NCBI RefSeq assembly: GCF_000966285.1
Contig: NZ_KQ031391.1
Location: forward strand, 5,890,430 to 5,954,429
DNA length: 64,000 nucleotides
Reading direction: 5' to 3'
Origin: Pseudofrankia sp. DC12
GTDB taxonomy: Bacteria > Actinomycetota > Actinomycetes > Frankiales > Frankiaceae
Of this stretch, positions 9,009-29,196 are shown piece by piece (position 1 is the first letter of the stretch; each line of letters opens with the position of its first letter). The notes under the pieces are model-generated. The model ran no database searches. It saw nothing but the letters and a program-made list of their open reading frames with translations, and was not told where the DNA came from. The position numbers and the translations under genes are program-made.

Positions 9009-10552
9009 ACACTGCCGCCCGGGCCGGGCACGCAGCGTCGGCCGTCGGCCGGGCCGACCACCCGTTCCGCGGCGAGTCGCCCCGATATGAGCACCATCGG
9101 CACCCCTACGCCTGGACGGGTGCCACTGCCGGTGAACACCACATTTTCCAGGCCTGGCACCAGGTTGCCTGGCCGAAATGGGCCGGTCTGCCGGAAGGTG
9201 TGCGCCGCCGCGAACGGCGCGCCGGCCGCGAGGCCGCGGGCCAGCCAGTCCGCCGGCGTCGTCGTCGACTCGACCGCGACCGTGGCCCCGAAATCCCTGT
9301 AGCCGTGGCGTTCCAGGGTCGCGACCACCTCGTCGCGATAGCGCGGGCCAATGACGGACCAGTCGAGTTCGGCCCCGGCGACCGCATTGGGCGTGGGGAA
9401 CAGGACATGAAAAGCATGCCCCCCGGCGGGCGCGAGCGCCGCCTGCGTCATCGACGGGACACTGACCAGGAATGACGGGTCGCTCATCAGCTCACCACGG
9501 TCGATGATCTCACTGAACGTGCGTCGCCAGGCCGTGCCGAAATGGATCGTGTGGTGCGCCGCGTCCAGCCGGTCCGCGTCCGGGTGCGCGTGCGCGCCCG
9601 CGCCGGCCAGCAGGAGGAAACACGACGGCGAGTAACGCAGCCGGGCCACCCGGCGCGGTGTCACCGCGGGCGGCAGCAACTCCCGGTAGGCGGTCGGCAG
9701 GTCCGGGTTGAGCACCACGACGTCGGCGGCGATCCGCTCACCGGTGGCGGTGCGCACCGCCACCGCCCGGCCGCCGCGCACCTCGACCTCGGTCACCGCG
9801 GTGCCGTAGCGGAACGTCGCCCCGTGCTTGGCCGCGGCGGCGGCCATCGCGACCGGCACCGCGTGCAGGCCGCCCTCGGCGTGGAACACGCCGGCGACCG
9901 AGTCCATGTAGGAGATCACCGCGTAGACGCCCAGCGCCTGGTGCGGGGCGAGGCCGGCGTACATCGCCTGGAACGAGAAGAGCCGCCGGGTGCGCGGGTC
10001 GCGCAGGTGGCTCCCCACCAGTCGGTCGAGCCGGCGGAAGGCGCCGAGGGCCGCCAGCCGGGCGAGCGACGGGCGCAGCAGGCCCAGTGGCGAGTCGAGC
10101 TGGGCGTCGATGAAGTCGTGCAGCTCGGCGCGGTAGATCGTCGTCACCGTGTCGACGAACCGCCGGTAGCCCGCGGCCTCGGCCGGGCCGCAGAGCGCCG
10201 CGATGCCGGCGGCGGTCGCCTCCGGGTCGGCGCGCACGTCCAGCGCCGAGCCGTCGGCGAACCGGGCCCGGTACATCGGGTCGAGCGGGCGCAGCGTGAC
10301 CCAGTCGGCGAGGTCCTCGTTGGCCGCGGCGAACGCGTCCGCGAGCAGGTCCGGCATGGTGAGCACCGTCGGTCCGGTGTCGAACTGGTAGCCGCCGGCC
10401 CGCCACACCCCGGCCCGCCCGCCCGGCCCGTCGGCGCGTTCCAGCACGGTCACCCGCCGGCCGGCCCCGGCCAGCCGGAGCGCGGCCGCCAGGCCACCCA
10501 GCCCGGCGCCGACGACCACCACGTGGTCCGTCGGCCCCGTCACCGTCCGCAC
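8984..10552 (-). CDS. crtI: Phytoene desaturase (CrtI type)
   Basis: FAD-dependent desaturase that introduces double bonds into phytoene, giving lycopene-type products. 522 aa, typical length. The dinucleotide-binding motif [21 protein letters not shown] begins near residue 11, with [13 protein letters not shown] following it. The family segment [14 protein letters not shown] is at about residue 57. The C-terminal FAD motif is seen in [21 protein letters not shown]. The GTG at 10552 is preceded by GGAAGGA six bases upstream. It heads the minus-strand series that ends in crtB; a divergent gene begins 110 bases away, so the promoter lies in that gap. Confidence 0.92.
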
Positions 10553-15090: not shown

Positions 15091-15139
15091 CCGGCGACTC
15101 TAGCGAGCCGCGGCGACACGTACCGCCGCGACGGAAACC

Positions 15140-16294
15140 TCATCGGACCGGGCGGCCCTTCCAGCGCAGCGTGCCACGCCGGTGCCGCCACCAGGACAGC
15201 CCGGTCAGCCAGGCCAGCGCGCCGACGGACAGCGGGTGAGCGGCGGCGTCCGGCCAGCTGCGCCCACCGGAGGCGCCGGCGGCGACCAGCCGGCCCGCGA
15301 CCCCGGCCAGATAGCCGGCCAGGCCGGCCCGTGAGCCGCGCAGTGCGGCCAGCGCCGGCAGCACGAACAGCCAGCCGAGCAGACCCAGCTGGGCGGCGCT
15401 GGCCGTCGGGTGGCCGCCACCCGCCGCCCACAGCGACTTGGCGTACCCGTCACGCAGCTCGCCGGCCCCGCGGTACATCCGGGTGACGGCGAGGTCGGTC
15501 CCGTCGGCGACGACGCCCCGCCCGCCGGCCAGCTTGACCGCCCGCAGCAGCGCGATGTCCTCCAGCACCTCGGCGCGTACCGAGGCATGCCCACCGGCCC
15601 GCCGGTAGGCGGTGGCGTCGACGCACAGCAGCTGGCCGTTCGCGGCCGACAGCGAGCCACGGTGGGAGCGTTCGGCCGCCCGCAGCGGGAGCAGTGCCAG
15701 GAACGACCACTGCAGCAGCGGCTGGACCAGCCGTTCCAGGGCGCTGACCGCCTCCTGACGCGGGTAGGGGCAGACCAGGTCGAGCCCGGTGTCGCGCAGC
15801 AGCGCGACCGTGCGGGCCAGCGCGTCCGGTTCGAGCGTCACGTCCGCGTCGACGAACACCAGCACGTCACCGGTGGCCGCCGCGGCGGCCTGGGCGCAGG
15901 CGTGCGGCTTGCCGAGCCAGCCCGCCGGCGGCCCGTCCCCGCGCTGGAGGACGACCCGGGGGTCCGCGACGGCGAGTTCCTGCGCGATCGCGCCGGTCGC
16001 GTCGTGGGAGGCGTCGTCGTGGACGAGGACCTCGAGGTTCGGGACGTCGGTCGAGGCGAGCACGGCCATGAGGCAGGGACCGATCCGCTCGGCCTCGTCG
16101 CGGGCCGGCAGCAGCACGCTCACCCGTTCGGTGACCGGCCGTGACGGTGGCGGCCGCAGCCACAACCGGGCGTTGACGGTCGCGTGTACCGCGACCAGCG
16201 CCGCCCCGGCCGAGCCGGACCAGACCGCGCCGCGGGCAGCCGTAGCCACCAGCCGGGCCTTCCTCGACGCGGCGGTCCTCGGCGCCTTGGTCAC
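15140..16294 (-). CDS. Family 2 glycosyltransferase, CruG-like
   Basis: 384 aa. The GT-A fold is evident: VSVLLPARDEAERIGPCL, then VLVHDDASHDATG, then VFVDADVTLEPDA (the metal-binding DxD-type site), and VLEDIALLRAVKLAGGRG as acceptor-side block. Membrane segments lie at the N-terminus (after residue 25) and in the C-terminal third. In cyanobacteria CruF (1',2'-hydratase) is paired with CruG, which glycosylates the 2'-hydroxyl of myxol; the adjacency here supports the same pairing. The start is GTG 16294, overlapping the cruF stop as GTGA. A GTG at 16381 would extend the protein by 29 residues. Confidence 0.75.
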   Translation of the reverse strand: MTKAPRTAASRKARLVATAARGAVWSGSAGAALVAVHATVNARLWLRPPPSRPVTERVSVLLPARDEAERIGPCLMAVLASTDVPNLEVLVHDDASHDATGAIAQELAVADPRVVLQRGDGPPAGWLGKPHACAQAAAAATGDVLVFVDADVTLEPDALARTVALLRDTGLDLVCPYPRQEAVSALERLVQPLLQWSFLALLPLRAAERSHRGSLSAANGQLLCVDATAYRRAGGHASVRAEVLEDIALLRAVKLAGGRGVVADGTDLAVTRMYRGAGELRDGYAKSLWAAGGGHPTASAAQLGLLGWLFVLPALAALRGSRAGLAGYLAGVAGRLVAAGASGGRSWPDAAAHPLSVGALAWLTGLSWWRHRRGTLRWKGRPVR

Positions 16295-17445
16295 CGCGGT
16301 GGGTCCGGGCTGGTCGCGTCCGGGAGTTCTTGACGGGCCTGCGGCCTGGCGGGTGCGGCCGCCCGGGCCCGGGTCCGCCACCGTCGCGACCCGCCCACGG
16401 CGGCGAGCAGGAGCGGCAGCCCCATGCCGACCCCGCCGGTCAGGGCCACCAGGGGCTGCCCGAAGAACGCGACACAGGCCAGCAGCCAGGACCCATACGT
16501 CCAGCAGACGAGAAGCAGCGGTACTCCGTCGCCCGCGGGCCAGCCGGCCGCTGGCGGGCCCGCGGCGCCCGCGTGCTCGACGTCGATGGCCCCACCCGCG
16601 GTCCCGCGGCCGCGGGTAGGGCCCGGGACGCGGTCCACCACGGCGACGAGGAGGGCGCCGACGACCAGCCAGCCGGCCGTGTTGGTCAGCGGGATGCCGT
16701 TGACGGCGGGGCCGTCGTTGGGAGCCCAGGCCCAGAAGCCCTCGGCGATCATCCTCGGGTCGAGGAACAGGTCCCAGCCGGCCAGCAGCATCCCGCCCAC
16801 AAGCGCGGTTACCGCCCTGACCGCCACGCCCGTCCCCGAGACCGCCGTGGCCGCGTGACGGCCGAACAGCAGGGCGGGGTAGGCCATCATCGACCAGGCC
16901 AACGGGATGATCACGGGCACGCCGACGATCTCGGGCCCGAGCCCGTCGGTGTAGGCATAGCGCCCGAACGGCCAGCCGGTGCGCAGCCCGGCCGCCTCGA
17001 CGAGAAGCCCCAACGCGACCGCGAGGGTGAGGTAGCGCGCGGTGAAACCCCAGCCGCGTCGGCGCGCGGCGTGGCTCGCCGAGGCGGTGAAGAACGCGAG
17101 CACCTGGGCGGCCGTCAGCCAGGCCCGGCCGGACCCGCCCGCCGCGAGCAGTGGGTACGGGATCTGCACGGCGACGACCGCCGCGGCCGCGAGCCAGGGC
17201 AGCGCGCCCGCTACCGGCCCGCCCGGGCGGCCCCCGGCTGTGCTGCGCCGGGGGCGGGAGCTCGTCGCGGTAGCTCGCCCCTTCGGTACGCCCGTGTGGT
17301 TGACGCTCGGGCGCCGGCCGTCCGTGGCCTGGGCGCCGCTGGCCTTCTTCCTGTCATCGACCTTCCTGTCATCGACGTGGTCCGCGCGGCCACCACCGGG
17401 CGAGCCAGCTGGAGGACCACCGAACGGGCCCGGGCCGAGACGCAC
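16291..17445 (-). CDS. cruF: CruF-like carotenoid 1',2'-hydratase (DUF422)
   Basis: Polytopic membrane protein of the carotenoid hydratase family, which adds water to the psi end of acyclic or monocyclic carotenoids. Family blocks seen: WPFGRYAYTDGLGPEIVGVP, IPLAWSMMAYPALL, GWDLFLDPRM, and WAWAPNDGPAVNGIPLTN. About seven hydrophobic segments. The domain begins near residue 80 of this 384-aa reading; family members are about 300 aa. GTG 17445 is the best codon 12 bases after the GNAT stop, but the true start could lie closer to the domain (for example GTG near 17172). An Asp/Arg/Lys repeat (VDDRK twice) lies near the N-terminus. Confidence 0.78.
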   Translation of the reverse strand: MRLGPGPFGGPPAGSPGGGRADHVDDRKVDDRKKASGAQATDGRRPSVNHTGVPKGRATATSSRPRRSTAGGRPGGPVAGALPWLAAAAVVAVQIPYPLLAAGGSGRAWLTAAQVLAFFTASASHAARRRGWGFTARYLTLAVALGLLVEAAGLRTGWPFGRYAYTDGLGPEIVGVPVIIPLAWSMMAYPALLFGRHAATAVSGTGVAVRAVTALVGGMLLAGWDLFLDPRMIAEGFWAWAPNDGPAVNGIPLTNTAGWLVVGALLVAVVDRVPGPTRGRGTAGGAIDVEHAGAAGPPAAGWPAGDGVPLLLVCWTYGSWLLACVAFFGQPLVALTGGVGMGLPLLLAAVGGSRRWRTRARAAAPARPQARQELPDATSPDPPR

Positions 17446-17456
17446 GTCTCGGAGGT

Positions 17457-18134
17457 CTACAGCGCTCGGGCGGGCCGGCCGAACCGGGCGGCCATCGCGC
17501 CGCGGCGGTGCCGTGGTCCGGGTGGCGGCAGCTCCTTGCCGAGCACGGCGTAGGCGGTGTAGCTGCCCGGAAAATGGAAGTTCGACAGCAACGGGACGAA
17601 CCCCTCGCTGGCATAGAGCCGGCGGGCCCGGCTGTCCGGCAGCTCCAGCGCGGACAGCGCGGCGGTGCGGTAGGGCACGTCGCGCAGCAGTTCGCGCAGC
17701 AGGCCCCGGCCGATGCCCTGGCCCTGGTACTCCGGCAGGACGTGCAGCTCGACGATCTCGAGGCAGTCCTCCAGCCAGTGCACCGAGGCGGCGGGCGACA
17801 GCGCGGTGGCCACCACGTCGTGCCACCACTGCCCCTGCCGGCCGGGCATCGCGTAGGTGACGCCGACCAGGGTGTCGTCGGAGGTCAGCGCGGCGACCGC
17901 GCGCAGGTCGCGCCGCTCGGTGTGCCGGCGGGCGTGCGTCATCCGGTCACGGGCGGCGCGGACCGGATCCATCTCGTGGACGTCCAGGAACGCCGCCTTG
18001 TAGACGGCGATCACCTCACCGAGGCGGGCACGCATCCGGGCGGGCGTCCAGCGCACCAGCCTGATGTCGGCACTCGCCAAGGCCTGCCTCGCAGTGAGTG
18101 GACGGCGGTCGGGAGGTCGACGATAACCCGGCAC
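17457..18134 (-). CDS. GNAT-family N-acetyltransferase
   Basis: About 225 aa. The acetyl-CoA pocket is seen as LHVLPEYQGQGIGRGLLRELL (Q/RxxGxG/A motif, about residue 138), with strand 5 and helix 4 in ALSALELPDSRARRLYASEGF. Substrate unknown. It lies between crtA and cruF on the same strand, 12 bases from cruF. It may acylate a carotenoid-linked sugar, or may be unrelated. The start is uncertain: GTG 18134 is the first in-frame codon downstream of crtA. The frame stays open into crtA, but that part is a shadow. Confidence 0.78.
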   Translation of the reverse strand: MPGYRRPPDRRPLTARQALASADIRLVRWTPARMRARLGEVIAVYKAAFLDVHEMDPVRAARDRMTHARRHTERRDLRAVAALTSDDTLVGVTYAMPGRQGQWWHDVVATALSPAASVHWLEDCLEIVELHVLPEYQGQGIGRGLLRELLRDVPYRTAALSALELPDSRARRLYASEGFVPLLSNFHFPGSYTAYAVLGKELPPPGPRHRRGAMAARFGRPARAL

Positions 18135-18186
18135 TCTCGCCGCGTGCCCGGCGACCGAGCAACTCTCCCATAGGGGACACGGTGTG

Positions 18187-19266
18187 TCATCGCGCCGTCC
18201 TGGAGCCGTCGGGACGCAGCGGATCCCGGCCGTCGACGGTGCCATGGCCGGCGAGGACCGCGAACCGGGCGAACAACTCCTCGGCGTACCAACCGACCTC
18301 GCCGGTGCGGCGGACGACGGCGGCATGCGCGGGCCGCTGGTAGGCGAACGCGCGGACGGCGGCGAGGCTCGGCCAGACGCTGAACGTGCCCTGCAGCCCG
18401 ATCGGCGCCTCCCCGATCCCGATCGCGAGCGTCGGCCCCGCCAGGCCGTGGGGCGTGCGGGGAAGAGCGGTGGGGCCAGCCTCGCCGGGGACGCCGGCCG
18501 CTGGGGTGCCCGCGTTTGTGGGGGCGCCGGCCAGCGCGGCGAGGTCGGCGGCGACCGGGGGCGCGGCCCGCCAGAACGCGACCGCATGCCGGGGTGCGAG
18601 CCGGGCCCTGGTCAGCACCGCCACCAGCCCCGGCGCCACCGCTCCCCGGGGCGGGGGCGCTGTGCCGGCCGTCTCTCCGTCCGCGGACTCGCTGCCTGCC
18701 AGGGCCGGGGCTGCCAAGGTCGGCCCGTCTACGTGATCGCCGTCTGCGCCCTCCGGCGGTTGCGAAGCGGCCGCGGCTGCGACCACCCGAGGGTCGAAGT
18801 CGCGATCATGGACGGCGGGTCGGCCCGAGGCCGCCGGGCTCGCCGCCGCGGGGTTTTCCGCTGGCGACGGGCCGAAGGGCTCACGGCCCGACCAGCGGCC
18901 GCGCCAGGCGTGCGGGCGTAGCCCGACGTGAAAGTGCTCGTCGGCGATCCGCGCCCAGGAACGGGCGACAGGGGAGTCTTCGAACGCCCGGGCGGCGGCC
19001 GGGCTGTCCCAGACCGCGACCAGTCCCCAGCGGCGTGGCTCGGCGTCCCGGGGCGCGAAGGCGCCGGGGGTGCCGGTGCCGACCAGCCTGGCGAACGTGA
19101 GTCCGTCCACGCGGCGCAGCCGAGCCCGGTCCAGGGCCATCCGGCCGAGCGCCCCGCCGATCCGCCGGGTCGGTACCCGCCACAGGTCGACGGTCACCGT
19201 CGGCCGCCCGGCGGCGCGCGTCGGCCGGCCGTGCGCACCTCCTGGCGACGCCTCCTCCAGCGACAT
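18187..19266 (-). CDS. crtA: CrtA-like spheroidene monooxygenase (carotenoid ketolase)
   Basis: CrtA enzymes oxidise C2 of acyclic carotenoid ends to a keto group. Two half-domains are visible: residues 20-125 (VDLWRVPTRRIGGALGRMALDR, WGLVAVWDSPAAARAFEDSP) and about 240-350 (APIGLQGTFSVWPSLAAVRAFAY, then VVRRTGEVGWYAEELFARF). The second pattern is typical of this family. Between them is a 110-residue Ala/Gly/Pro-rich insert. 359 aa. ATG 19266 has GAGGAGG five bases upstream. It is the first gene of the minus-strand carotenoid block and is divergent from the SOS operon; the SOS box lies 38 bases before its start. Confidence 0.72.
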   Translation of the reverse strand: MSLEEASPGGAHGRPTRAAGRPTVTVDLWRVPTRRIGGALGRMALDRARLRRVDGLTFARLVGTGTPGAFAPRDAEPRRWGLVAVWDSPAAARAFEDSPVARSWARIADEHFHVGLRPHAWRGRWSGREPFGPSPAENPAAASPAASGRPAVHDRDFDPRVVAAAAASQPPEGADGDHVDGPTLAAPALAGSESADGETAGTAPPPRGAVAPGLVAVLTRARLAPRHAVAFWRAAPPVAADLAALAGAPTNAGTPAAGVPGEAGPTALPRTPHGLAGPTLAIGIGEAPIGLQGTFSVWPSLAAVRAFAYQRPAHAAVVRRTGEVGWYAEELFARFAVLAGHGTVDGRDPLRPDGSRTAR

Positions 19267-19303: not shown

Positions 19304-19319
19304 TCGAACCTGTGTTCGA
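19304..19319. promoter_or_regulatory. LexA/SOS box
   Basis: TCGAACCTGTGTTCGA is a perfect match to the actinobacterial LexA consensus TCGAAC-N4-GTTCGA. It is 100 bases upstream of the HEPN gene start and controls, by inference, the HEPN-imuA'-imuB-dnaE2 operon. It also lies 38 bases before the divergent crtA start. Further TTCGAA half-sites follow at about 19330, inside a direct repeat of GCGTCGTT-GAA. Confidence 0.9.
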
Positions 19320-19418
19320 ATCAGCGTCGTTCGAATGCGGCGTCGTTAGAACAAGTGCCGGGCGGGCCGGCGACTACAACCGGCGACCAGCCGGCGGGTG
19401 GACACCGGGAGGGTGGAG

Positions 19419-20015
19419 ATGACCAGCCAGCCAACACGGCACCAGCAGTCGTCCGTGCCACAGCAGGCCGGGCGCCCACCCGTGTGCCCGCAACCCGCCC
19501 TGCATCCCGTCCGGCCGCGGCCCCCGCAGTCTGCCAACGGGGTACGACAGGTCGCGTCGGTCGACCAGCGGGCCGAGGTCCCGGCGGCCGGGATGCCGCG
19601 GCGCTCCCGGGACGACCTGCTCGCGGCGGCCCGGCACGGGCTGGCCGAGGCGGCGTTCGCCCACCCGGCGGGGGAGCGGTACGCGCTCGCGCACCTCGCC
19701 GCGCTGCGGGTGGCCGCGGCGGTGCTGGCGGCCCGGGCCAGGCCTCGGCCGGGCCGGCGCGGCCGGCCGGTGAGTGCCTGGCGTCTGCTGGCCCAGGTCA
19801 CCCCGGAGCTCGGCGAGTGGGCCGACTTCTTCGCCGCGGGCGCGCCCCGGCGGGCCGCGGCCGAGACCGGGCTGTCCGTCGTGTCCACCCGCGAGGCCGA
19901 CGACCTCGTCCGGCAGGTGGAGATCTTCCTCGGCGTGGTCGAGGAGGTCCTGGGCCTGCCGTCTCAGCCGACGCTCATCGGGGCGGCGCCGGTGGCGCGT
20001 TCCGGGACGGACTAG
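19419..20015 (+). CDS. SAV_6107-family HEPN-domain protein
   Basis: 198 aa. The C-terminal 130 residues form a mainly helical HEPN-like domain of the type seen in actinobacterial SAV_6107 proteins (RDDLLAAARHGLAEAAF, YALAHLAALRVAAAVLAAR, SAWRLLAQVTPELGEWADFF). An N-terminal Gln/Pro/Arg-rich tail of about 55 residues precedes it. HEPN domains are often RNases or nucleotide-binding partners; no classic R-x4-6-H pair is clear, so catalysis is doubtful. ATG 19419 has GGGAGG six bases upstream. It is the first gene after the SOS box and is two bases from imuA', so it should be induced with the mutagenesis genes. Confidence 0.78.
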   Translation: MTSQPTRHQQSSVPQQAGRPPVCPQPALHPVRPRPPQSANGVRQVASVDQRAEVPAAGMPRRSRDDLLAAARHGLAEAAFAHPAGERYALAHLAALRVAAAVLAARARPRPGRRGRPVSAWRLLAQVTPELGEWADFFAAGAPRRAAAETGLSVVSTREADDLVRQVEIFLGVVEEVLGLPSQPTLIGAAPVARSGTD

Positions 20016-20017
20016 CC

Positions 20018-20971
20018 GTGCACCCGGTCCGCGCGCGCGACTTCCCGCAGTCCCGTGATGTGCAGTCCCGTGACGTGCAGTCCCGTGACGCCCACCCGGC
20101 AAGGCGGCCCACCGGCCGTCCGGAGCCGGTGCTGGCCGCGCTGCGGGACCTGCGGGACCTGCGGGAGCTGCGGGAGATCGCCCATGACGGCCCGGCCGGC
20201 CCGCCTGGTCTCGGTGATCATGGCCGGCTGCTGCCGGTGCCGGCGGCGCTGGCCGGGCTGCTGCCCCGGAGGGCGCTGGCGCGGGGGACGACGGTGGCCG
20301 TCGAGGGGTCGGCAGCGCTGCTGCTCGCCGTGCTCGCCGAGCCGTCCCGGGCCGGAGCGTGGTGCGCGGTGGTCGGCTACCCGGCGCTGGGCCTGCTCGC
20401 CGCGGCCGAGGCCGGGATCGCGCTGGACCGTTTGGTTCTGGTACCCGAGCCGGGCCCGCGCTGGCCCGTGGTCACCGCGGCCCTGATCGATGCCCTGGAT
20501 GTGGTGGCGGTCCGTCCGCCGGCGGGGGAGCGGACGGCCGGCTCGGCCCGGCGGCTCGCGGCCCGTGCTCGTGAGCGGGGCTGCCTGCTGCTCCCGGTCG
20601 GTGCCGGCTGGGAGGGCGCGGAGCTGCGCCTGACTGCGGCGGAACGGTCCTTCCACGGCCTCGGCCAGGGCCATGGGCACCTGCGTGGTGCCCGGCTGCT
20701 GGTCCAGGTGTCCGGCCGGGGCGCGGCCAGTCGTACCCGCCATGGCTGGCTCACCGTCGCCGGGCACGACCCCGTCATCGAGCTCGACGATGCCGCCGGC
20801 CTGAGCCCCGCCACCGGACGGGAGAACGTCATCGGTCAGGACCTGGAAGCGGATGCCGCGGTCGCCGGGCTGACGGTCGCCGGGCTGGATGGTGCCGCCG
20901 GGCCGCGCGTGGGCGCCGAGCCGGGAGCCAGCGTGGCCCGAGGGCTGCGCGTCGTCGAGGGGGCCGCGTAG
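20018..20971 (+). CDS. imuA': ImuA'-like accessory protein of the mutasome
   Basis: 317 aa. Resembles the RecA-like, catalytically weak proteins that precede imuB in actinobacteria and link it to DnaE2/RecA. A central core (LARGTTVAVEGSAALLLAVLAE) replaces Walker A with a loop lacking the GKT; the later strand AWCAVVGYPALGLLAAAEAG and RLLVQVSGRG match the RecA-type beta sheet. Few sequence motifs are strong, so the call leans on position directly upstream of imuB (two bases). The N-terminus has 15-bp and 9-bp coding repeats (QSRDV and LRD). GTG 20018 follows the HEPN stop by two bases. Confidence 0.75.
   Translation: MHPVRARDFPQSRDVQSRDVQSRDAHPARRPTGRPEPVLAALRDLRDLRELREIAHDGPAGPPGLGDHGRLLPVPAALAGLLPRRALARGTTVAVEGSAALLLAVLAEPSRAGAWCAVVGYPALGLLAAAEAGIALDRLVLVPEPGPRWPVVTAALIDALDVVAVRPPAGERTAGSARRLAARARERGCLLLPVGAGWEGAELRLTAAERSFHGLGQGHGHLRGARLLVQVSGRGAASRTRHGWLTVAGHDPVIELDDAAGLSPATGRENVIGQDLEADAAVAGLTVAGLDGAAGPRVGAEPGASVARGLRVVEGAA
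20047..20091. repeat. Three 15-bp units in imuA'
   Basis: Three tandem copies of GCAGTCCCGTGACGT (one base differs in the first and one in the last) near the start of imuA', coding for repeated QSRDV. A second set, of 9-bp units giving LRD/LRE, follows at about 20139-20178. Confidence 0.85.
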
Positions 20972-20973
20972 TC

Positions 20974-22572
20974 ATGCCCGTGCGGATGCTGGCTGTGCAC
21001 TGCCCGGACTGGCCGACGCTGGCCGCCGGGACCGGGCCCGAGGTGCCCGCCGCCGTGGTCGAGGCGAACCGGGTGGTCACCGTGACCGCGGCCGCCCGGG
21101 CCGCCGGGGTGCTGCCCGGGCTGCGCCGCCGCGACGCCCAGGGGCGCTGCCCGGAGCTGCGGCTGCTGGCGGCCGACCCCGACCGGGACGCCCGGGCGTT
21201 CGAGCCGGTGGTGGCCGCCGTCGAGACGGTCGTGCCCGGCGTCGAGGTGACCCGGCCGGGCGACTGCCTGGTGCCGGTCCGCGGCGCGGCCCGTTACTTC
21301 GGCGCGGAGGCCCTGGTGGTCGCCCAGATCCGCGGCGCGGTGGCCGCCGTCGCGGGCGACTGCCGGATCGGGATCGCCGACGGGCCGTTCGCCGCGGGGC
21401 TGGCCGGCCGGCTCGGGGAGACGGTGCCGGCCGGGGCGAGTGCCTGCTTCCTCGCCGGGCTGCCGGTGGAGCTGGTCGACCGGCCCGAGCTCGCCGGGCT
21501 GCTGCGCCGGCTGGGGCTGCCGACCCTGGGCGCGTTCGCCGCGCTGCCCGCGGCCCAGGTGGTCGACCGGTTCGGCCCGGACGGGGCACTCGTCCACCGG
21601 CTGGCCCAGGGCGACGACGAGCGGCTGCCGGAGCCCCGGATGGTCCCCCCGGACCTCACCGTCGCCACCGAGCTCGACCCCCCGGCCGACACCGTGGAGG
21701 CGGTCGTCTTCACCGCCCGCCGGCTCGCCGAGGACTGCCACGCGAAGCTGCTGGCCGCGGGGCTGGCCTGCGCCCGGGTCGCGATCGAGGCCGAGACCGA
21801 GAACGGGGAACGGCTGCGCCGGGTCTGGCGGCACGACGGCCCGCTGACCGCCGCCGCGATCACCGACCGGATCCGCTGGCAGCTCGATGGCTGGCTGTCC
21901 GCCGCGGCCCTGGCGTCGGAGGCCAGCCGGGCCGCCCCGCCCGGGACCGGCCACGGGCCCGGGGCGTCTGGGGGCGGGCACGGGCCGACTGCGGGCGTGA
22001 CGTGGATCAGGGTGGTTCCGGAGGACCTGCTGGCCGCCGACGGCCGCCAGCTGGGGCTGTGGGGTGAGCCGGGCGCGGCCGACGGCCGGGTGCGCCGGGC
22101 CCTCGACCGGGTCCAGGGCCTGCTCGGACCGGACGCGGTCCTGACCGCGGAGGTGCGCGGTGGGCGTGACCCCGCCACGGCGGTCCGGCTGGTGCCGTGG
22201 GGCGAGCCCCGCGGGCCGCGCGACGCCACCGAGGCGGACCGGGCGGGCGCCCCATGGCCCGGGCGGCTGCCCGCGCCCGCGCCGGCCACCGTGCTCGCCG
22301 AGCCGCGCCGCGCCCAGCTGCTCGACGCCGCCGGCGAGCCGGTGATAGTCAGCGGCCGGACGGTGGCCACCGGGGCGCCGGCCTGGCTGGCCGTCGACGG
22401 CCGCCCGCCGGTCCGGGTGACCGGCTGGGCTGGTCCCTGGCCGGCCGACGAACGCTGGTGGGAGCCGTCCGGGCGCCGCCGCGCCCGCTTCCAGCTGACC
22501 ACCGAGGACGGCGACGCCCGCCTGCTGTTCGTCGAGGGCGGTCGATGGTGGTGGGAGGCGTCCTACGGCTGA
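20974..22572 (+). CDS. imuB: ImuB, Y-family polymerase homologue without catalytic acids
   Basis: 532 aa. Y-family fold: palm starts MPVRMLAVHCPDWP, where DinB has its first catalytic Asp; this is the CPDWP signature of ImuB. The second acidic pair (SxDE in active polymerases) is replaced by GDCLVPVRGAARYFG. It should therefore not polymerise but act as a bridge between the beta clamp, ImuA' and DnaE2. Helix-hairpin-helix and little-finger regions follow (LAGLLRRLGLPTLGAFAALP; HRLAQGDDERLPEP). The C-terminal 150 residues are ImuB-specific. A Gly/Pro insert lies near residues 320-345. Start ATG 20974, two bases after imuA'. Confidence 0.9.
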   Translation: MPVRMLAVHCPDWPTLAAGTGPEVPAAVVEANRVVTVTAAARAAGVLPGLRRRDAQGRCPELRLLAADPDRDARAFEPVVAAVETVVPGVEVTRPGDCLVPVRGAARYFGAEALVVAQIRGAVAAVAGDCRIGIADGPFAAGLAGRLGETVPAGASACFLAGLPVELVDRPELAGLLRRLGLPTLGAFAALPAAQVVDRFGPDGALVHRLAQGDDERLPEPRMVPPDLTVATELDPPADTVEAVVFTARRLAEDCHAKLLAAGLACARVAIEAETENGERLRRVWRHDGPLTAAAITDRIRWQLDGWLSAAALASEASRAAPPGTGHGPGASGGGHGPTAGVTWIRVVPEDLLAADGRQLGLWGEPGAADGRVRRALDRVQGLLGPDAVLTAEVRGGRDPATAVRLVPWGEPRGPRDATEADRAGAPWPGRLPAPAPATVLAEPRRAQLLDAAGEPVIVSGRTVATGAPAWLAVDGRPPVRVTGWAGPWPADERWWEPSGRRRARFQLTTEDGDARLLFVEGGRWWWEASYG

Positions 22573-22672
22573 GGCGAGCGCGCGCCTGTCCCGCCGTGGT
22601 CGCCGTCCCTCGGGCGGTTTCCCGGCGGGCCGCGTTCGGATGCTTGCCCGGGTGACTCCGGATTCCCGCCCG

Positions 22673-22687
22673 TCGAGCCGGGCTCGA
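22673..22687. promoter_or_regulatory. 15-bp palindrome between imuB and dnaE2
   Basis: TCGAGCCGGGCTCGA is a perfect odd-length palindrome 115 bases before dnaE2. It resembles a LexA site (TCGA..N..TCGA), but the inner half-sites are AGC/GCT and the spacing is one base short. It may be an internal regulatory site or a hairpin. Confidence 0.3.
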
Positions 22688-22801
22688 TGCGGTGGGCTGG
22701 GCCGGTTGGTGCGACGACCGGCCCGGGAGTGGTGACCAAGTACGCCGTGCCAGCGCGCGGCGATGCCTGCCGGGGCGGCCCGGCGTCTGGGGGATAGCGC
22801 G

Positions 22802-25800
22802 GTGAGCTGGTGGAATCCGGCGGTTTCGTGGGCGGAGCTGGAGCGGCGGATGTCCGGGCGCCCACCCCAGCCGGGCGGGCTGGAAGGGGACGGCGGGGAC
22901 GCGCCCGCGTGGTCGCGGCACCGGGAGCCCTACCAGCCGGCGCCCGAGCTGGTCGCCGCCGCGACCGCGGCCCGCGTTCAGGGAGCGGGCCGAGCCGGCG
23001 CGGCGGCTGGGCCGGGTCCGGCGGCGGCACCCTACGCCGAGCTGCACTGCCACTCGGCGTTCAGCTTCCTCGACGGGGCCAGCCAGCCGGAGGAGCTGGT
23101 CGAGGAGGCCGCCCGGCTCGGGCTGTCGGCGCTGGCGCTCACCGACCATGACGGCATGTACGGGGTGGTCCGGTTCGCGGAGGCCGCCGGTGAGGTAGGC
23201 CTGCCGACGCTCTACGGGGTGGAGGTCTCCCTGTCCTCCGCGGGTCCGGGCCAGCCCGCGCCGAGGCCAGGCACGAGTCGGCATCACCTGGGTCCAGGAT
23301 CGGGCCAGCATCACCTGGGTCCAGGACAGGGCCAGTCCCGCTCGGGGCCAGGCCTGGGCCAGCGTCGGCCGGGGCCGGACGGTGCTGTGCCGGCCGCGCG
23401 CCCGGGGGTGCCCGACCCGGCCGGCGACCACCTGCTCGTGCTGGCCCGGACTCCGGCGGGGTACCGCCGGCTGTCCCGGGCGGTGTCCGACGCGCACCTG
23501 GCCGGCGGGGAGAAAGGCCGCCCGCTGACCAGCCTGGACGTGCTTGCCGCCGCGGCCGGCGACGGGCACTGGCAGATCCTCACCGGCTGCCGCAAGGGGC
23601 TGGTGCCCGCCGCGCTGGCCGCCGGCGGCCTCGACGCCGCCCGTGTCGCCCTCGACGGGCTGGTCGGCCGGTTCGGCCGGGACAACGTCGCCATCGAGCT
23701 GTGGGACCACGCGCACCCGCTCGACTCGGACCGCAACGACGCTTTGTACGGCCTCGCCCAGGAGGCCGGGCTGACCTGTGTCGCCACGAACAATGTCCAC
23801 TATGCGACGCCGTCGGCCGGCCGGCTCGCCGCGGTGATGGCCTCGATCCGGGCCCGCCGGTCGCTCGACGAGATGGACGGCCACCTGCCGCCGGCCGGCG
23901 CCGCGCACCTGCGTTCCGGCGTCGAGATGACCGATCGGTTCGCCCGGTATCCGGGCGCGGTGGCGGCAGCGGCGCGGATCGGGGTCACACACGCCTTCGA
24001 CCTGCGGCTCGTCGCCCCGAAGCTGCCGGACTTCCCGGTGCCACCCGGGCACACCGAGGCCAGCTGGCTGCGGCTGCTGACCATGCAGGGCGCGGCCCGC
24101 CGGTACGGGCCGCCGGAACGGGAACGGGTCGGCGGGGCCTACGACCAGCTCGCCCACGAGCTCACCCTGATCGAGTCCCTCGGCTTCCCCGGCTACTTCC
24201 TGATCGTCCACGACATCGTCGAGTTCTGCCGCCGGGAGGACGTCCTCTGCCAGGGCCGCGGCTCGGCGGCGAACTCGGCGGTCTGCTACGCGCTGGGCAT
24301 CACCGGCGTCGACGCGGTCTCCTTCGGCCTGCTGTTCGAGCGGTTCCTCGCCCCGGAGCGGGACGGGCCACCCGACATCGACCTGGACATCGAGTCCGGC
24401 CGCCGTGAGGAGGTCATCCAGTACGTCTACGGCCGCTACGGCCGGGACCGCGCCGCCCAGGTGGCCAACGTCATCAGCTACCGGTCCCGCTCGGCGGTGC
24501 GCGACGTCGCCCGCGCGCTCGGTTTCTCCCCCGGCCAGCAGGACGCCTGGTCCTCCAGCCTCGACCGCTGGTCCCCGCTACCCGCCACCGCCCCGCCCAA
24601 CCCGGCGTCATCCGCCACCGCCCCGCCCGGCATCCCGGCGTCATCCGCCCCCGCACCAGCGGTCGCGGGTGGCCGGAACGTGCCCCCACGGCGCGGAGGC
24701 GCGCAGCCCCGGAGGCCCTTGGACGAGCGGAGCGAAGTCCGAGGGCCGCAGGGGCTGTCGCCGGAGCGCACCGTTCGCTCCGGAGGACGCGGCCCGGGGG
24801 TACCGGCCGAGCCGCCAGGCGAGGCCGGTGCCGCAAGGCCGCGCCCGGACGGAGCGAACCAAGAAAACACAGCAGTCCCCGCCGAGGTGGTCGGGCTCGC
24901 CGGGCAGCTGCTCGGGTTCCCGCGCCATCTGGGCATCCACTCGGGCGGGATGGTGATCTGCGACCGGCCGGTGGCCGAGGTGGTGCCGGTGGAGTGGGCC
25001 CGGATGCCGGGCCGGACCGTCATCCAGTGGGACAAGGACGACTGCGCCGTCGCCGGGCTGGTCAAGTTCGACCTGCTCGGCCTCGGGATGCTGGGCGCCC
25101 TGCACCTCGCGTTCGCCCTGATCCGGGACCATCACGGCCGTCACCTGGACCTGGGGGAGATCCCACCGGAGGACCCGGCCGTCTACGACATGCTCTGTGC
25201 CGCGGACTCGATCGGCGTCTTCCAGGTGGAGAGCCGGGCCCAGATGGCGACCCTGCCCCGGCTGAAGCCACGCCGGTTCTACGACCTGGTCGTCGAGGTG
25301 GCGTTGATCCGGCCCGGCCCGATCCAGGGCGGCTCGGTACATCCGTACATCCGGCGCCGCAACGACCTCGAGGAGGTCGCCTACCCGCATCCGCTGCTGG
25401 AGCGCTCGCTGAAGAAGACCCTTGGCATACCGCTCTTCCAGGAGCAGCTCATGCAGATGGCGATCGACGTCGCCGGGTTCACCGCGGCCGAGGCGGACCA
25501 GCTGCGCCGCGCGATGGGCGCCAAGCGGGCGACCGAACGGATCGACCGGCTGCGCGAGCGGTTCTACCAGGGCATGGCCACCAACGGGATCACCGGCGTG
25601 GCGGCCGACGAGCTGTACACGAAGCTCGCCGCGTTCGCGAACTTCGGCTTCCCGGAGAGCCACTCGGTCAGCTTCGCGTTCCTCGTCTACGCCAGCGCCT
25701 GGATCAAGCTGTACTATCCGGCGGCGTTCTGCGCGGCGCTGGTCAACGCCCAGCCTATGGGCTTCTACTCCCCGCAGAGCCTGGTCGCCGACGCCCGCCG

Positions 25801-26725
25801 GCACGGCGTCACCGTGCATGGCCCCGACCTGAACGCCTCCGGCGCCGGCGCGATCCTGGCGGACGGGGGGCGGCCCGCCGGGCTGGCCGAGCCGGTGTGG
25901 GACGGGGAGCAGGTCGGGGACGCCCCGGCTCCCGCCCGGATCGGCGCCGGGGCCGCGGCCGGGCCGGCGGAGCTGGGCGGGGCGGCCGGCGGTCTGGCGG
26001 GTCCACGGCATCCGGCCGTCCGGCTGGGCCTGGCGGGGGTCCGCCTGATCGGCGCGGCGAACGCGGAGCGGATCGTGGCCGCGCGCGGCGCTGGCGGCCC
26101 GTACCGGGACATGGCGGACCTGGTGCGCCGGACCGGCCTGACCGCGGCCCAGCTGGAGGCGCTGGCCACCGCGGGGGCGTTCGGCTGTTTCGGCCTGGCC
26201 CGCCGGGAGGCGTTGTGGGCGGCCGGCGCCGCTGCCCAGGCGAGACCAGACCGGCTGGAGGGGACGACGCTGGGCGGGGACCCGTCGGCGGTCGCGGCGC
26301 ACCTGCCCGGCATGTCCGGTGCTGAGGAGATCGTCGCCGACCTGTGGGCGACCGGGATCACCCCGAGCCGCTACCCGACCGAGTTCGTCCGTGACCGGCT
26401 GGACGCGCTCGGCGTGGTGGTCGCCACCCGGCTGGCGGAGCTGCCGGGCGACCGGCGGGTGGTCGTCGCCGGCGTCGTCACCCACCGGCAGCGCCCGGCG
26501 ACCGCCGGTGGGACCACCTTCCTCAACCTGGAGGACGAGACTGGCCTGGTGAACGTGATCTGCTCCCGTGGGGTCTGGGTACGCCACCGCGTGGTCGCCA
26601 CCTCCGCGCCCGCGCTGATCATCCGTGGTCGGCTGGAGAAGGCCGACGGCGTGGTGAACGTGATCGCCGAACGGCTCGAGCGCCTCCCGCTCGCCGTGGC
26701 CCGCCGCTCTCGGGACTTCCGGTGA
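22802..26725 (+). CDS. dnaE2: Error-prone DNA polymerase III alpha subunit
   Basis: Inducible C-family polymerase for mutagenic lesion bypass, acting with ImuA'/ImuB. The N-terminal signature SWWNPAVSWAELERRMSGR is DnaE2-specific. The PHP domain (ELHCHSAFSFLDGAS, ALTDHDGMYG) is near residue 80. Palm acids are in PDIDLDIESGRREEV (about 523). OB-fold region near the C-terminus (VVVAGVVTHRQRP, TFLNLEDETGLVNVI). 1,307 aa, about 200 longer than relatives, because of two inserts: a Gly/Pro/His repeat region (about 150-205) and a 110-residue low-complexity insert (about 590-700) that carries a palindrome. GTG 22802 has GGGGGA upstream and gives the family N-terminus. Confidence 0.93.
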   Translation: MSWWNPAVSWAELERRMSGRPPQPGGLEGDGGDAPAWSRHREPYQPAPELVAAATAARVQGAGRAGAAAGPGPAAAPYAELHCHSAFSFLDGASQPEELVEEAARLGLSALALTDHDGMYGVVRFAEAAGEVGLPTLYGVEVSLSSAGPGQPAPRPGTSRHHLGPGSGQHHLGPGQGQSRSGPGLGQRRPGPDGAVPAARPGVPDPAGDHLLVLARTPAGYRRLSRAVSDAHLAGGEKGRPLTSLDVLAAAAGDGHWQILTGCRKGLVPAALAAGGLDAARVALDGLVGRFGRDNVAIELWDHAHPLDSDRNDALYGLAQEAGLTCVATNNVHYATPSAGRLAAVMASIRARRSLDEMDGHLPPAGAAHLRSGVEMTDRFARYPGAVAAAARIGVTHAFDLRLVAPKLPDFPVPPGHTEASWLRLLTMQGAARRYGPPERERVGGAYDQLAHELTLIESLGFPGYFLIVHDIVEFCRREDVLCQGRGSAANSAVCYALGITGVDAVSFGLLFERFLAPERDGPPDIDLDIESGRREEVIQYVYGRYGRDRAAQVANVISYRSRSAVRDVARALGFSPGQQDAWSSSLDRWSPLPATAPPNPASSATAPPGIPASSAPAPAVAGGRNVPPRRGGAQPRRPLDERSEVRGPQGLSPERTVRSGGRGPGVPAEPPGEAGAARPRPDGANQENTAVPAEVVGLAGQLLGFPRHLGIHSGGMVICDRPVAEVVPVEWARMPGRTVIQWDKDDCAVAGLVKFDLLGLGMLGALHLAFALIRDHHGRHLDLGEIPPEDPAVYDMLCAADSIGVFQVESRAQMATLPRLKPRRFYDLVVEVALIRPGPIQGGSVHPYIRRRNDLEEVAYPHPLLERSLKKTLGIPLFQEQLMQMAIDVAGFTAAEADQLRRAMGAKRATERIDRLRERFYQGMATNGITGVAADELYTKLAAFANFGFPESHSVSFAFLVYASAWIKLYYPAAFCAALVNAQPMGFYSPQSLVADARRHGVTVHGPDLNASGAGAILADGGRPAGLAEPVWDGEQVGDAPAPARIGAGAAAGPAELGGAAGGLAGPRHPAVRLGLAGVRLIGAANAERIVAARGAGGPYRDMADLVRRTGLTAAQLEALATAGAFGCFGLARREALWAAGAAAQARPDRLEGTTLGGDPSAVAAHLPGMSGAEEIVADLWATGITPSRYPTEFVRDRLDALGVVVATRLAELPGDRRVVVAGVVTHRQRPATAGGTTFLNLEDETGLVNVICSRGVWVRHRVVATSAPALIIRGRLEKADGVVNVIAERLERLPLAVARRSRDFR
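23282..23335. repeat. Two 27-bp tandem units in the dnaE2 PHP region
   Basis: Two 27-bp copies (23282-23308 and 23309-23335, two differences), starting CATCACCTGGGTCCAGGA and coding HHLGPG-containing nonapeptides. More degenerate GGGCCAG units follow to about 23370. The unit closely resembles the 27-bp repeat in rsmH at 38471. Confidence 0.85.
24706..24783. repeat. Double-hairpin palindromic element inside dnaE2
   Basis: Arm 24706-24724 pairs with 24737-24755 at 16 of 19 positions around a 12-base loop, and a second hairpin follows: CCGGAGCG (24761-24768) pairs perfectly with 24776-24783 over a 7-base loop. The two hairpins are in the in-frame, low-complexity insert of dnaE2, between family-conserved blocks. 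The arrangement is like REP/palindromic-element insertions that survive in genes by keeping the frame. Confidence 0.75.
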
Positions 26726-26819: not shown

Positions 26820-26953
26820 GGCGCCAGTGGGCCGAGAGCCGGCCTCCTTCGGTCGTCGGCGGCCCACCGTCGCCGGACCACCCTCAGGCGCCAGTGGGCC
26901 GAGAGCCGGCCTCCTTCGGTCGTCGGCGGCCCACCGTCGCCGGACCACCCTCA
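26820..26953. repeat. 67-bp perfect tandem duplication downstream of dnaE2
   Basis: Bases 26820-26886 are repeated exactly at 26887-26953. The array fills most of the gap between dnaE2 and the next gene and ends 58 bases before the small ORF start, so it lies just upstream of that operon's likely promoter. No gene was found in the 26726-27011 gap. Confidence 0.95.
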
Positions 26954-27011
26954 TTCGACTACCATCGGTTATCTTCACGATCACCTTGGTTACCGAACGT
27001 AGGGATAGCCG

Positions 27012-27101
27012 ATGTCTCGATGGATGGTGACGGTCGCCGGCGTGTCGGTGGGAGGCCTCGTCGTCGGCGTGGTCATCGGGTTCTCGCTGCCGGCCCGATG
27101 A
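27012..27101 (+). CDS. 29-residue single-pass membrane peptide (candidate)
   Basis: The ORF starts MSRWMVTVAGV and contains one long hydrophobic stretch rich in Val/Gly, ending in LPAR. It has a good ribosome site (GGGA, six bases before ATG), and its TGA overlaps the methyltransferase ATG (ATGA at 27098). That coupling argues it is translated. No family is recognised. It may work as a leader peptide for methyltransferase and dinB translation, or as a small membrane protein. Confidence 0.6.
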   Translation: MSRWMVTVAGVSVGGLVVGVVIGFSLPAR

Positions 27102-27967
27102 CGATCCCGGCCGCGGCGCCGTCGACGGGCCCGTCGGCGGACGGCTTGGCGAGCCCGTCGGCCCGGCCCGGGGACGAGTACCGGGCGGCGGAGCGGGCCG
27201 ACCCGCGGCACGCCGCCGTGTGGCGGGCGCTCACGGATGTGCTCGCGGCCGGCCCGGCCGGGACCAGGCTGACCGTGGTCGACGCCGGCGGTGGCAGCGG
27301 CGGGTTCGCCGTGCCACTCGCCGAGCGGGGGCACCGGGTCATGGTCGTCGACCCGAGCCAGGACTCGCTGGCCGCGCTGGCCCGCCGCGCCGCCGACGCC
27401 GGGGTGGCGGCGCGCGTCACCGGCCGCCAGGGTGACCTGACCGAGCTGGGTGCCGTGGTCGGCCCCGGCCTCGTCACGGCCGGCGGCGCCGACCTGCTGC
27501 TGTGCCACGCGGTGCTCGACCGGGTCGACGACCCGGAACGGGCCCTCGCCGCGGCGCTGCGGGTGCTGCGGCCCGGCGGCTGGCTGAGCCTGCTCGTCCC
27601 GGGCCGGGCCGGCACCGTGCTGGCTCGCGCGCTCGCCGGCCGGTTCGACGAGGCAGCCCAGGCACTGGCTGGCTCGTACCCGCCGGCGCACGTCGCGCGC
27701 CTGGCCGGCGAGACCCATCGCTTCGACACCGACGAGATCGTCGGTCTCGTCCGGGCGGCGGGCGCCGAGGTCGTCGCCGTGCACGGTGTCCGGGTTCTCA
27801 CCGATCTCGCGACGCCGCCGGCCGGTGGCGGGGACGAGCGGGAGCCCGCGGCCGGCTGGGCCGAGCGGCTCGCCGAGCTGGAGGCCGCCGTCGCCACCCG
27901 TCCGCCCTACCGGGACCTCGCCGCGCAGCTGCACGTCCTCGCCCGCCGCCCGCCGGCCGCACCGTGA
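27098..27967 (+). CDS. SAM-dependent methyltransferase (class I)
   Basis: 289 aa. The SAM-binding motif is VVDAGGGSGGFAVPLAERGH (about residue 60); motif II VMVVDPSQDSL and post-I region LLLCHAVLDRVDDPERAL and LRVLRPGGWLSLLVPGR are typical of Ubie/Methyltransf_11 proteins. Substrate unknown. A Ser/Pro-rich N-terminus of about 25 residues precedes the domain. In many actinobacteria a methyltransferase of this type is next to dinB upstream of mraZ. It overlaps the 29-codon ORF at its start and dinB at its end (GTGA). Confidence 0.88.
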   Translation: MTIPAAAPSTGPSADGLASPSARPGDEYRAAERADPRHAAVWRALTDVLAAGPAGTRLTVVDAGGGSGGFAVPLAERGHRVMVVDPSQDSLAALARRAADAGVAARVTGRQGDLTELGAVVGPGLVTAGGADLLLCHAVLDRVDDPERALAAALRVLRPGGWLSLLVPGRAGTVLARALAGRFDEAAQALAGSYPPAHVARLAGETHRFDTDEIVGLVRAAGAEVVAVHGVRVLTDLATPPAGGGDEREPAAGWAERLAELEAAVATRPPYRDLAAQLHVLARRPPAAP

Positions 27968-29196
27968 CCGGCGCCTCGGCCGGCCCGGCCGGGACGGGCG
28001 TCGACAGGTCGATGAGCGGCCCGATCCTGCACGTCGACATGGACGCGTTCTTCGCCTCGGTGACCCTGCTGGAACGCCCGGAGCTGCGCGGCCGGCCCGT
28101 GATCATCGGCGGTGGGACGCGCGGCGTCGTGCTGTCCGCGACCTATGAGGCACGCGCCTTCGGCGTACACAGCGCGATGCCGCTCGCCCGCGCGCGCCGG
28201 CTGTGCCCACCGGCAGTGGTGCTGCCACCTGAGCGGCACCGTTACCAGGAGGTCTCGAACCGGGTGATGGCGATCCTGCGGGAGGTCACCCCGCTGGTAG
28301 CCCCGCTCTCGGTGGACGAGGCCTTCCTGGACGTGGCCGGGTCCAGGCGGCTGTTCGGCACACCCGTCGAGGTAGCTCGGCTGATCCGTGCCCGGGTACT
28401 CGCCGAGGAGGGCCTGACCTGCTCGGTCGGAGTAGCCCCGACGATGTTCGTCGCCAAGATCGCCTCAACCCGGTCCAAACCGGACGGCCTGCTGGTGGTC
28501 CCGGCGGACGCGGTGCTCACCTTCCTGCACCCGCTGCCGACGTCGGCCCTGTGGGGCGTCGGGCGGGCCACCGAGGCGGCGCTCGACCGGCTCGGGCTGC
28601 GCACCATCGGCGACATCGCAGACTGCCCGCTTCCCACGCTGCAACGGGCGCTCGGCCAGGCTGCCGGCGCGCACCTGAACGCCCTCGCGCACGGCCGCGA
28701 CGAGCGCGGTGTGGACCCGGGGTCGACCGAGGTCAGCATCAGCGCCGAGCACACCCTCCCGGTCGACAGCGCCGACGAGAGCGCGCTGGCCCGGGAGCTG
28801 CTGCGCCTGTCCGGCCAGGTGGCGCGGCGCCTGCGTGACCGCGGCCGGGTGGCGCGGACCGTCGGCGTCAAGATCCGGCTGGCCGACTTCACCACGCTCA
28901 CCCGGGCGCGCACGCTGCGGGAGCCGACCGACGTCAGCCAGGAGATCTACCGAGGCGCGCTCGAGCTGTTCCACGAGGCGGGCCTGGCTGGCAAGGCCGT
29001 CCGGCTGGTCGGAGTCCGCGCGGCGAACCTGGCGGACGCGGGCGGTGCGGGCCATCAGCTCGCGTTCGACGAGCGGCCGGTCGGCTGGTCCCAGCTCGAC
29101 CGGGCCACCGACGCGGCGGGCCGTCGTTTCGGTGTCGGCTCGATCGGTCCCGCCAGCCTGCTGCCGCGTCAGCCCAGGCGACCGGGACCGACCTGA
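27964..29196 (+). CDS. dinB: DNA polymerase IV
   Basis: Catalytically intact Y-family translesion polymerase. Catalytic acids are present in ILHVDMDAFFASV (first Asp pair) and LSVDEAFLDVAG (Asp-Glu). Finger and thumb blocks: TYEARAFGVHSAMPLARARRLCP, SVGVAPTMFVAKIAS, LWGVGRATEAALDRLG. 410 aa from GTG 27964, which overlaps the methyltransferase stop; ATG 28012 would give a more usual N-terminus (MSGPILHVDMD) and is the alternative start. No SOS box is seen upstream, so unlike imuB/dnaE2 it is not obviously LexA-controlled. Confidence 0.93.
   Translation: MTGASAGPAGTGVDRSMSGPILHVDMDAFFASVTLLERPELRGRPVIIGGGTRGVVLSATYEARAFGVHSAMPLARARRLCPPAVVLPPERHRYQEVSNRVMAILREVTPLVAPLSVDEAFLDVAGSRRLFGTPVEVARLIRARVLAEEGLTCSVGVAPTMFVAKIASTRSKPDGLLVVPADAVLTFLHPLPTSALWGVGRATEAALDRLGLRTIGDIADCPLPTLQRALGQAAGAHLNALAHGRDERGVDPGSTEVSISAEHTLPVDSADESALARELLRLSGQVARRLRDRGRVARTVGVKIRLADFTTLTRARTLREPTDVSQEIYRGALELFHEAGLAGKAVRLVGVRAANLADAGGAGHQLAFDERPVGWSQLDRATDAAGRRFGVGSIGPASLLPRQPRRPGPT

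Follow-up and report, generated by a model that had tools for sequence, protein, structure and literature searches.

A SAV_6107-type HEPN gene heads a LexA-boxed operon with an exchangeable polymerase module in many families of Actinomycetes

In our study, a stretch of 64,000 nucleotides from Pseudofrankia sp. DC12 (hereafter the window), which begins at base 5,890,430 of a genome made up of one 6.88-Mb contig, was analysed together with related genomes. The subject was a gene encoding a HEPN protein of the SAV_6107 type, which lies between a LexA (SOS) box and the mutasome genes imuA', imuB and dnaE2. We found that the SAV_6107-type HEPN gene belongs to the core of the predicted LexA regulon in the class Actinomycetes, and that in many families it heads an SOS operon with an exchangeable polymerase module. 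The imuA'-imuB-dnaE2 genes look like one such module, placed behind an older SOS-controlled HEPN gene. Two samples of genomes were used, comprising 35 genomes of the window's family and a class-wide draw of 196 genomes of Actinomycetes. The HEPN loci compared were 140, from 30 actinobacterial families, with 16 of the 141 HEPN genomes of the class draw missing. Loci, genomes and families are cited by number (L, G and f, respectively).

In the 700 bp that precede the HEPN match, a perfect LexA box was present in 90 of the 140 loci and a box with at most one mismatch in 106, against 5 and 19, respectively, of 3193 control windows from the same loci. The search range was widened to −1500 to +60 once a small gene was often found between the box and HEPN; a box with at most one mismatch was then found in 120 of the 140 loci vs. 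18 of 1247 control windows. The box was present near HEPN in 28 of the 30 families. The 20 loci without such a box comprised all 17 of Streptomycetaceae (f16), both loci of f4 (2 mismatches) and one locus whose contig was cut 466 bp upstream. A perfect box was also found at all 17 named HEPN loci outside Streptomycetaceae (Amycolatopsis, Kutzneria, Gandjariella, Blastococcus, Solihabitans, Umezawaea, Pseudonocardia, Kineosporia and three metagenome-assembled genomes named to higher ranks only), one of which, a Sporichthyaceae metagenome-assembled genome, is also among the 140. The HEPN family itself hardly occurs outside the class: of 149 genomes drawn across the phylum, 9 contained HEPN above the cut-off, and 1 of these 9 lies outside the class. 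A few arrangements of the box were seen besides. Two boxes with one mismatch each stood 40 bases apart before HEPN in six loci of f15 (L119, L121, L125, L126, L133 and L145), and three loci of f22 (L107, L110 and L159) contained a second perfect box about 1.7–1.9 kb downstream of HEPN, before or near the methyltransferase gene, where there may be another SOS unit. In 8 of the 17 f16 loci, a recurrent CCGAAC-N4-GATCGA was found about 190–250 bp upstream of HEPN (Streptomyces), which is perhaps a decayed LexA box.

The operon of the window and its conserved neighbours were found to be arranged as follows.

19304–19319: LexA (SOS) box TCGAACCTGTGTTCGA, 0 mismatches to the consensus
19398–20015, plus strand: HEPN_SAV_6107 gene (PF18726, E 4.9e-34, 117 bits vs. 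a cut-off of 27.2)
20018–20971, plus strand: imuA' (NF058630, E 1.5e-54, 183.9 bits vs. a cut-off of 65)
20974–22572, plus strand: imuB, a Y-family homologue without the usual catalytic residues (IMS domain PF00817, E 1e-11)
22763–26725, plus strand: dnaE2, an error-prone C-family polymerase of the ImuAB-linked clade (NF004225, 1470 bits vs. a cut-off of 939; DnaE tree)
26894–27967, plus strand: methyltransferase, a conserved neighbour whose true start is unsettled (PF08241, E 1.5e-14; tblastn matches in 76 of the 140 HEPN loci)
28012–29196, plus strand: dinB (Pol IV), a conserved neighbour (NF003015, 395 bits vs. a cut-off of 367; tblastn matches in 82 of the 140 HEPN loci)

The box was the sole site of the window with fewer than two mismatches to the LexA box. 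The first-pass annotation, made from the sequence of the window, had described a perfect box followed on one strand by HEPN, imuA', imuB and dnaE2, with the first three genes spaced by 2 bases. The same arrangement was obtained here: the stop-to-start gaps were 2 bases for HEPN/imuA', 2 bases for imuA'/imuB and 190 bases for imuB/dnaE2, and no second LexA box was seen in the 190-base gap. Each of the known mutasome genes named in that annotation was matched by its profile (ImuA' by NF058630, ImuB by IMS and DnaE2 by NF004225), and the SOS-type control that it proposed agrees with the perfect box of the window and the conservation of the box in relatives, from which it is predicted. The ATG at 19419 is probably a better start of HEPN, with the purine-rich GGGAGGGTGGAG immediately 5' of it. 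The N-terminus of ImuB contained AVHCPDWP, the corresponding stretch of the window's DinB being LHVDMDAFF; ImuB is devoid of the usual metal-binding residues because AVHCPDWP replaces the catalytic motif. Past dinB, the window contained genes for a DUF3040 protein (SCO2097 family), a transglutaminase and an AAA_3 (MoxR-type) ATPase on the other strand, followed by mraZ at 36512, which heads the division and cell-wall (dcw) cluster further downstream of the SOS operon. The vicinity of dinB and mraZ, noted earlier as the usual setting of this HEPN gene in many actinobacteria, is thus present in the window itself. On the minus strand, at 13450–19266, carotenoid-type genes and a spheroidene-monooxygenase-like gene were found divergent from the SOS operon, and several families likewise have matches to them upstream of HEPN.

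The gene behind HEPN was found to vary. The next recognised gene was imuA'-imuB-dnaE2 in 20 of the 140 loci (18 of the window's family and 2 of f32), DnaE in 42, methyltransferase or dinB in 42, DUF3040 in 4 and GNAT in 3, and in 29 none of the query set was recognised. A DnaE of another clade, with no imuA'B between, followed HEPN in 19 families, among them the window's own (G164 and G206). A DnaE tree (64 proteins with frames of at least 850 amino acids, quick method) contained three deep clades, each with a Shimodaira–Hasegawa-like approximate likelihood ratio test (SH-aLRT) value of 100, namely 11 DnaE1, 18 ImuAB-linked DnaE2 and 35 HEPN-linked DnaE (hereafter the third clade). By tblastn, 39 loci of 20 families had a third-clade DnaE no more than 8.5 kb from HEPN; at one locus of f18 (L079) it lies 8.2 kb from HEPN with a perfect LexA box of its own at +8103. 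By regular expression, the polymerase motif PDxDxD was conserved in all 35 rows of the third clade, and the LHxH pattern of the PHP domain was not found. The third-clade proteins scored about 600–662 bits on both the DnaE1 and the DnaE2 models, under both cut-offs (6 of 6 tested). In the 8 genomes tested, such a protein was the sole full second DnaE alongside one canonical DnaE1.

The spacing behind HEPN was tight for the polymerase modules. Measured from the HEPN stop, the closest in-frame start of the following gene lay within −20 to +60 in 35 of 42 DnaE loci, in 18 of 19 imuA' loci (19 of the 20 being covered) and in 12 of 39 methyltransferase loci, under a rule that favours small gaps; a few of the 42 DnaE loci are decayed copies of the other clade. 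In 28 loci of 17 families (e.g., L073, L074, L076, L092, L108, L111, L142 and L153), a regular expression picked out the small gene that separates HEPN from its LexA box and frequently comes first behind that box; it belonged to DUF6504 in 6 of 6 tested. Among named species, the order DUF6504-HEPN-DnaE was present in Blastococcus haudaquaticus and Kineosporia rhizophila.

Within the window's family, the module was found to be swapped, lost or decayed behind a persisting HEPN gene and LexA box. G164 contained a third-clade DnaE behind HEPN, followed by the same methyltransferase, dinB and DUF3040 genes; in G206 the third-clade DnaE was seen as a short fragment. Only fragments of the ImuAB-linked DnaE2 clade stood behind HEPN in G137, G069 and G207, and the remaining members of the family without ImuA' had no DnaE there. 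All 14 genomes of the family with HEPN but no ImuA' contained a box with at most one mismatch. The ImuAB-linked dnaE2 was fragmentary in three family members (L055, L060 and L061), no ImuB match was found between imuA' and dnaE2 at L053, and the dnaE2 match of G041 (L272) contained one in-frame TGA. The first-pass annotation had offered, as one of two possibilities, that the mutasome was inserted into an existing HEPN-dinB region, and this fits best, as G164 contains HEPN, DnaE of another clade, methyltransferase and dinB at the same place. The third-clade DnaE would have come first and the mutasome later, a direction suggested because the third clade is widely distributed.

The linkage between HEPN and imuA' was strict in two families. 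In the window's family, ImuA' scored above the cut-off in 18 of 35 genomes and HEPN in 32 of 35, and in all 18 ImuA' genomes HEPN lay directly upstream of imuA' on the same strand; the linkage was also present in both sampled genomes of f32. The gene order suggested for comparison was thus recovered in relatives. In the class draw, HEPN was present in 141 of 196 genomes and ImuA' above the cut-off in 85, of which 23 were devoid of HEPN, 11 contained the two genes adjacent (9 of the window's family and 2 of f32) and 51 contained them apart, i.e., distant or on different contigs, some being separate contigs of draft genomes. DnaE adjoined HEPN in 2 of 41 genomes with unlinked ImuA' and in 40 of 77 genomes without ImuA', in a table that omits two loci where neither DnaE nor ImuA was matched and the downstream sequence was shorter than 1500 bp. 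ImuA' and a HEPN-adjacent DnaE thus seldom co-occur, a descriptive statement as the families are related.

The HEPN protein was predicted to have the HEPN fold. Its AlphaFold2 model contained five long helices with a mean predicted local distance difference test (pLDDT) score of 90. HEPN structures ranked first by VIA-align 2, namely 2hsb (Z 14.2, root-mean-square deviation (rmsd) 2.7, 116 aligned), sacsin HEPN 3o10 (Z 12.4, rmsd 2.7, 113 aligned), 1ufb (Z 11.8, rmsd 2.6, 110 aligned) and 1wol (Z 11.4, rmsd 2.4, 106 aligned), and other helical proteins began near Z 6.7. The sequence match to 2hsb was weak (E 0.027). Two of the 140 loci had no closed HEPN open reading frame, and the structure alignment used 35 of 80 loci. 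The most conserved residues included W128, P136, W141, F145, R152, A167, D168 and F177 (family-weighted conservation 0.98–1.00), and 11 columns were invariant among 42 diverse sequences. Active HEPN RNases contain an Arg-x4–6-His motif. This HEPN family is predicted to have no recognisable motif of this kind at the usual, late-helix site: R152 was conserved in 35 of 36 rows, and the next candidate His places were occupied by Ala in 33 of 36 and Gly in 36 of 36, a mapping that comes from a weak alignment. A literal R94-x4-H99 was highly conserved in helix 2, where H99 was substituted by Tyr in 10 of 36 rows (alignment A2). Past the last long helix, the C-terminus contained a recurrent Q-P-x-L-like tail (window residues 190–193).

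Expression evidence comes from Corynebacterium glutamicum, where cg2381, a conserved hypothetical protein of the LexA regulon, rose by log2 3.86 with ciprofloxacin, equal to recA (PMC5055667). By synteny, cg2381 is probably the HEPN gene of C. glutamicum, because this species has a PF18726 match, cg2378 is mraZ and cg2380 is the adjoining membrane protein; the order HEPN-DUF3040-mraZ of both f4 loci was used in this argument. No Corynebacterium HEPN locus was found among the best 80 of 500 relatives.

We tentatively favour HEPN as a non-catalytic SOS adaptor for lesion-bypass polymerases. HEPN proteins are usually dimeric. After the cleavage of LexA, HEPN would be made early, together with the lesion-bypass polymerases, and would act at the stalled fork as a small, non-catalytic, probably dimeric adaptor which helps to load, retain or release a C- or Y-family polymerase of the error-prone kind. 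The contact may be made by the conserved surface of W128, W141, F145 and R152, and possibly by the C-terminal Q-P-x-L tail. As HEPN is retained through swaps of the polymerase module, it would be expected to target a partner that all modules share (e.g., the sliding clamp, the RecA filament, DinB or the primer end), rather than ImuA' or ImuB. A wider form of this proposal, to which we give less credence, makes HEPN a hitherto unrecognised factor of SOS mutagenesis, nearly universal in Actinomycetes, and a catalytically dead adaptor which would serve any error-prone polymerase (ImuA'B-DnaE2, third-clade DnaE with DUF6504, or DinB), the HEPN gene with its LexA promoter being the socket for swapped modules.

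Several observations weigh against the adaptor. The proposal draws on the box counts, the tight gene order, the module swap, the induction of cg2381 and the HEPN fold, from which we infer the contact with polymerases, and co-regulation alone could yield the same gene map. The sampled families are akin to each other, so the locus counts are not independent. HEPN is retained without a box in Streptomycetaceae, where a box with at most one mismatch was present in 0 of 17 sampled and 2 of 63 named loci (the 63 and the 140 share at least 2 loci), and the 23 ImuA' genomes without HEPN point in the same direction. At the 28 loci of f13, f15 and f17, HEPN has none of the polymerase genes of the query set as its neighbour; of the 27 loci tallied, 16 had the next gene on the same strand and 11 on the opposite one, and the four next genes scanned there encoded PAC2, arginine deiminase, GNAT and a sugar-phosphate enzyme. 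By itself, Foldseek found nothing below E 0.001 (best 1wol, E 0.41, probability 0.99). The Q-P-x-L-like tail was present in only 87 of 138 HEPN proteins by a loose regular expression (a few rows unscored) and differs from the standard clamp motif, and we do not count it as a clamp-binding motif. A single-gene HEPN unit in f13, f15 and f17 was rejected, given the same-strand next gene in 16 of 27 loci. In f17 the next gene was on the same strand in 13 of 16, as with the PAC2-family gene at 10225–11601 of L146.

The strongest alternative is that HEPN is a general SOS effector which does not touch polymerases, e.g., a checkpoint for division or growth, or a factor that binds RNA, and that its proximity to polymerases comes from a shared LexA promoter near dcw. 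We consider this rather unlikely. It stays serious because a box with no more than one mismatch is retained, in spite of the lack of a polymerase neighbour, at 27 of the 28 loci of f13, f15 and f17; HEPN is also often upstream of DUF3040 and mraZ, and in C. glutamicum mraZ falls as cg2381 rises under ciprofloxacin (PMC5055667). Against it stand the tight order with DnaE and imuA', counted under the rule named above, and the persistence of the HEPN-polymerase order through the module swap.

The other possibility offered by the first-pass annotation was that HEPN is a working fourth part of the mutasome. A role in SOS mutagenesis gains support, with any module; a part specific to ImuA'-ImuB-DnaE2 does not. 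The complete linkage in the window's family and in f32 is what such a subunit would show, whereas HEPN and ImuA' were apart in 51 of the 62 class genomes with both, 23 of 85 ImuA' genomes were devoid of HEPN, HEPN with a LexA box was common without ImuA', and HEPN was retained where the mutasome had decayed or was absent. A mutasome-specific subunit is very improbable, and we rejected it on these phyletic and linkage counts. An active RNase, or the toxin of an SOS-induced pair of HEPN and minimal nucleotidyltransferase (MNT), has the HEPN fold and the highly conserved literal R94-x4-H99 in its favour. These residues lie in helix 2 with Tyr often at H99, Ala and Gly follow R152 at the place of the His of active HEPN RNases (weak alignment), the motif is entered as "No" for SAV_6107 in a table of PMC3710099, and no minimal nucleotidyltransferase was found among the window's neighbours scanned with Pfam; we judge this activity highly unlikely. 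That HEPN is a mere leader or passenger held at the LexA promoter by chance, a linkage that slow rearrangement near the dcw cluster could produce for a gene to which, to our knowledge, no phenotype has been assigned, is equally implausible, as the box and HEPN persist away from dcw and polymerase genes in f13, f15 and f17 and also, in the window's family, where the module has been lost or has decayed, and 11 columns of the protein are invariant.

DnaE2-based mutagenesis is a route to mutations under stress in several actinobacteria, and the recruitment of DnaE2 is not fully explained. The HEPN gene, an uncharacterised and widely conserved SOS gene often directly before an error-prone polymerase module, is therefore a strong candidate for a new helper in damage-induced mutagenesis. 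What is new is a concrete component, with a LexA box in 28 of 30 families, which is not mentioned in the polymerase surveys searched (PMC3919608, PMC6511836 and the main text of PMC12926913). The swap of modules behind a fixed HEPN-LexA unit also offers a natural experiment on what an accessory protein recognises. HEPN was likewise not mentioned in PMC3765255, nor in the Streptomyces venezuelae LexA study outside its supplementary tables (PMC9380542), which is consistent with the lost box in Streptomycetaceae; PMC1274311 treats another HEPN family. A paper with both HEPN and DnaE2 was not found in the literature searched, most subscription journals lying outside its scope.

The system of the window was compared with those described before. 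The window's protein is a member of the HEPN-M (SAV_6107) family PF18726, and PMC3710099 lists the RNase motif of this family as not conserved; the family is there a table row without context or function, and in the accessible text "SOS response" occurs only in a reference title. The cg2381 gene is alike in being SOS-induced, near mraZ and probably of the same family, and unlike in being only "conserved hypothetical" in the accessible text of PMC5055667, its identity as HEPN resting on synteny. The actinobacterial DnaE2B systems were described with a standalone ImuB-C and with or without an active PolY (PMC12926913). The HEPN-linked DnaE loci of relatives, with the small upstream gene and dinB, are probably of the same kind, the DnaE2B of that report being likewise a second DnaE without ImuA/ImuB found in actinobacteria only. 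The DUF6504 protein may then correspond to ImuB-C. An hhalign comparison of 7 DUF6504 proteins with the last 123 residues of the window's ImuB gave no match (probability 0.95%, E 0.058), and Pfam found no DUF6504 in this ImuB even at E 10. The two descriptions differ in that HEPN is the constant gene here. Finally, the window resembles the mycobacterial-type ImuA'-ImuB-DnaE2 mutasome in containing ImuA', ImuB and a canonical DnaE2 in one SOS-boxed run, and differs from it in that HEPN comes first, between the LexA box and imuA'.

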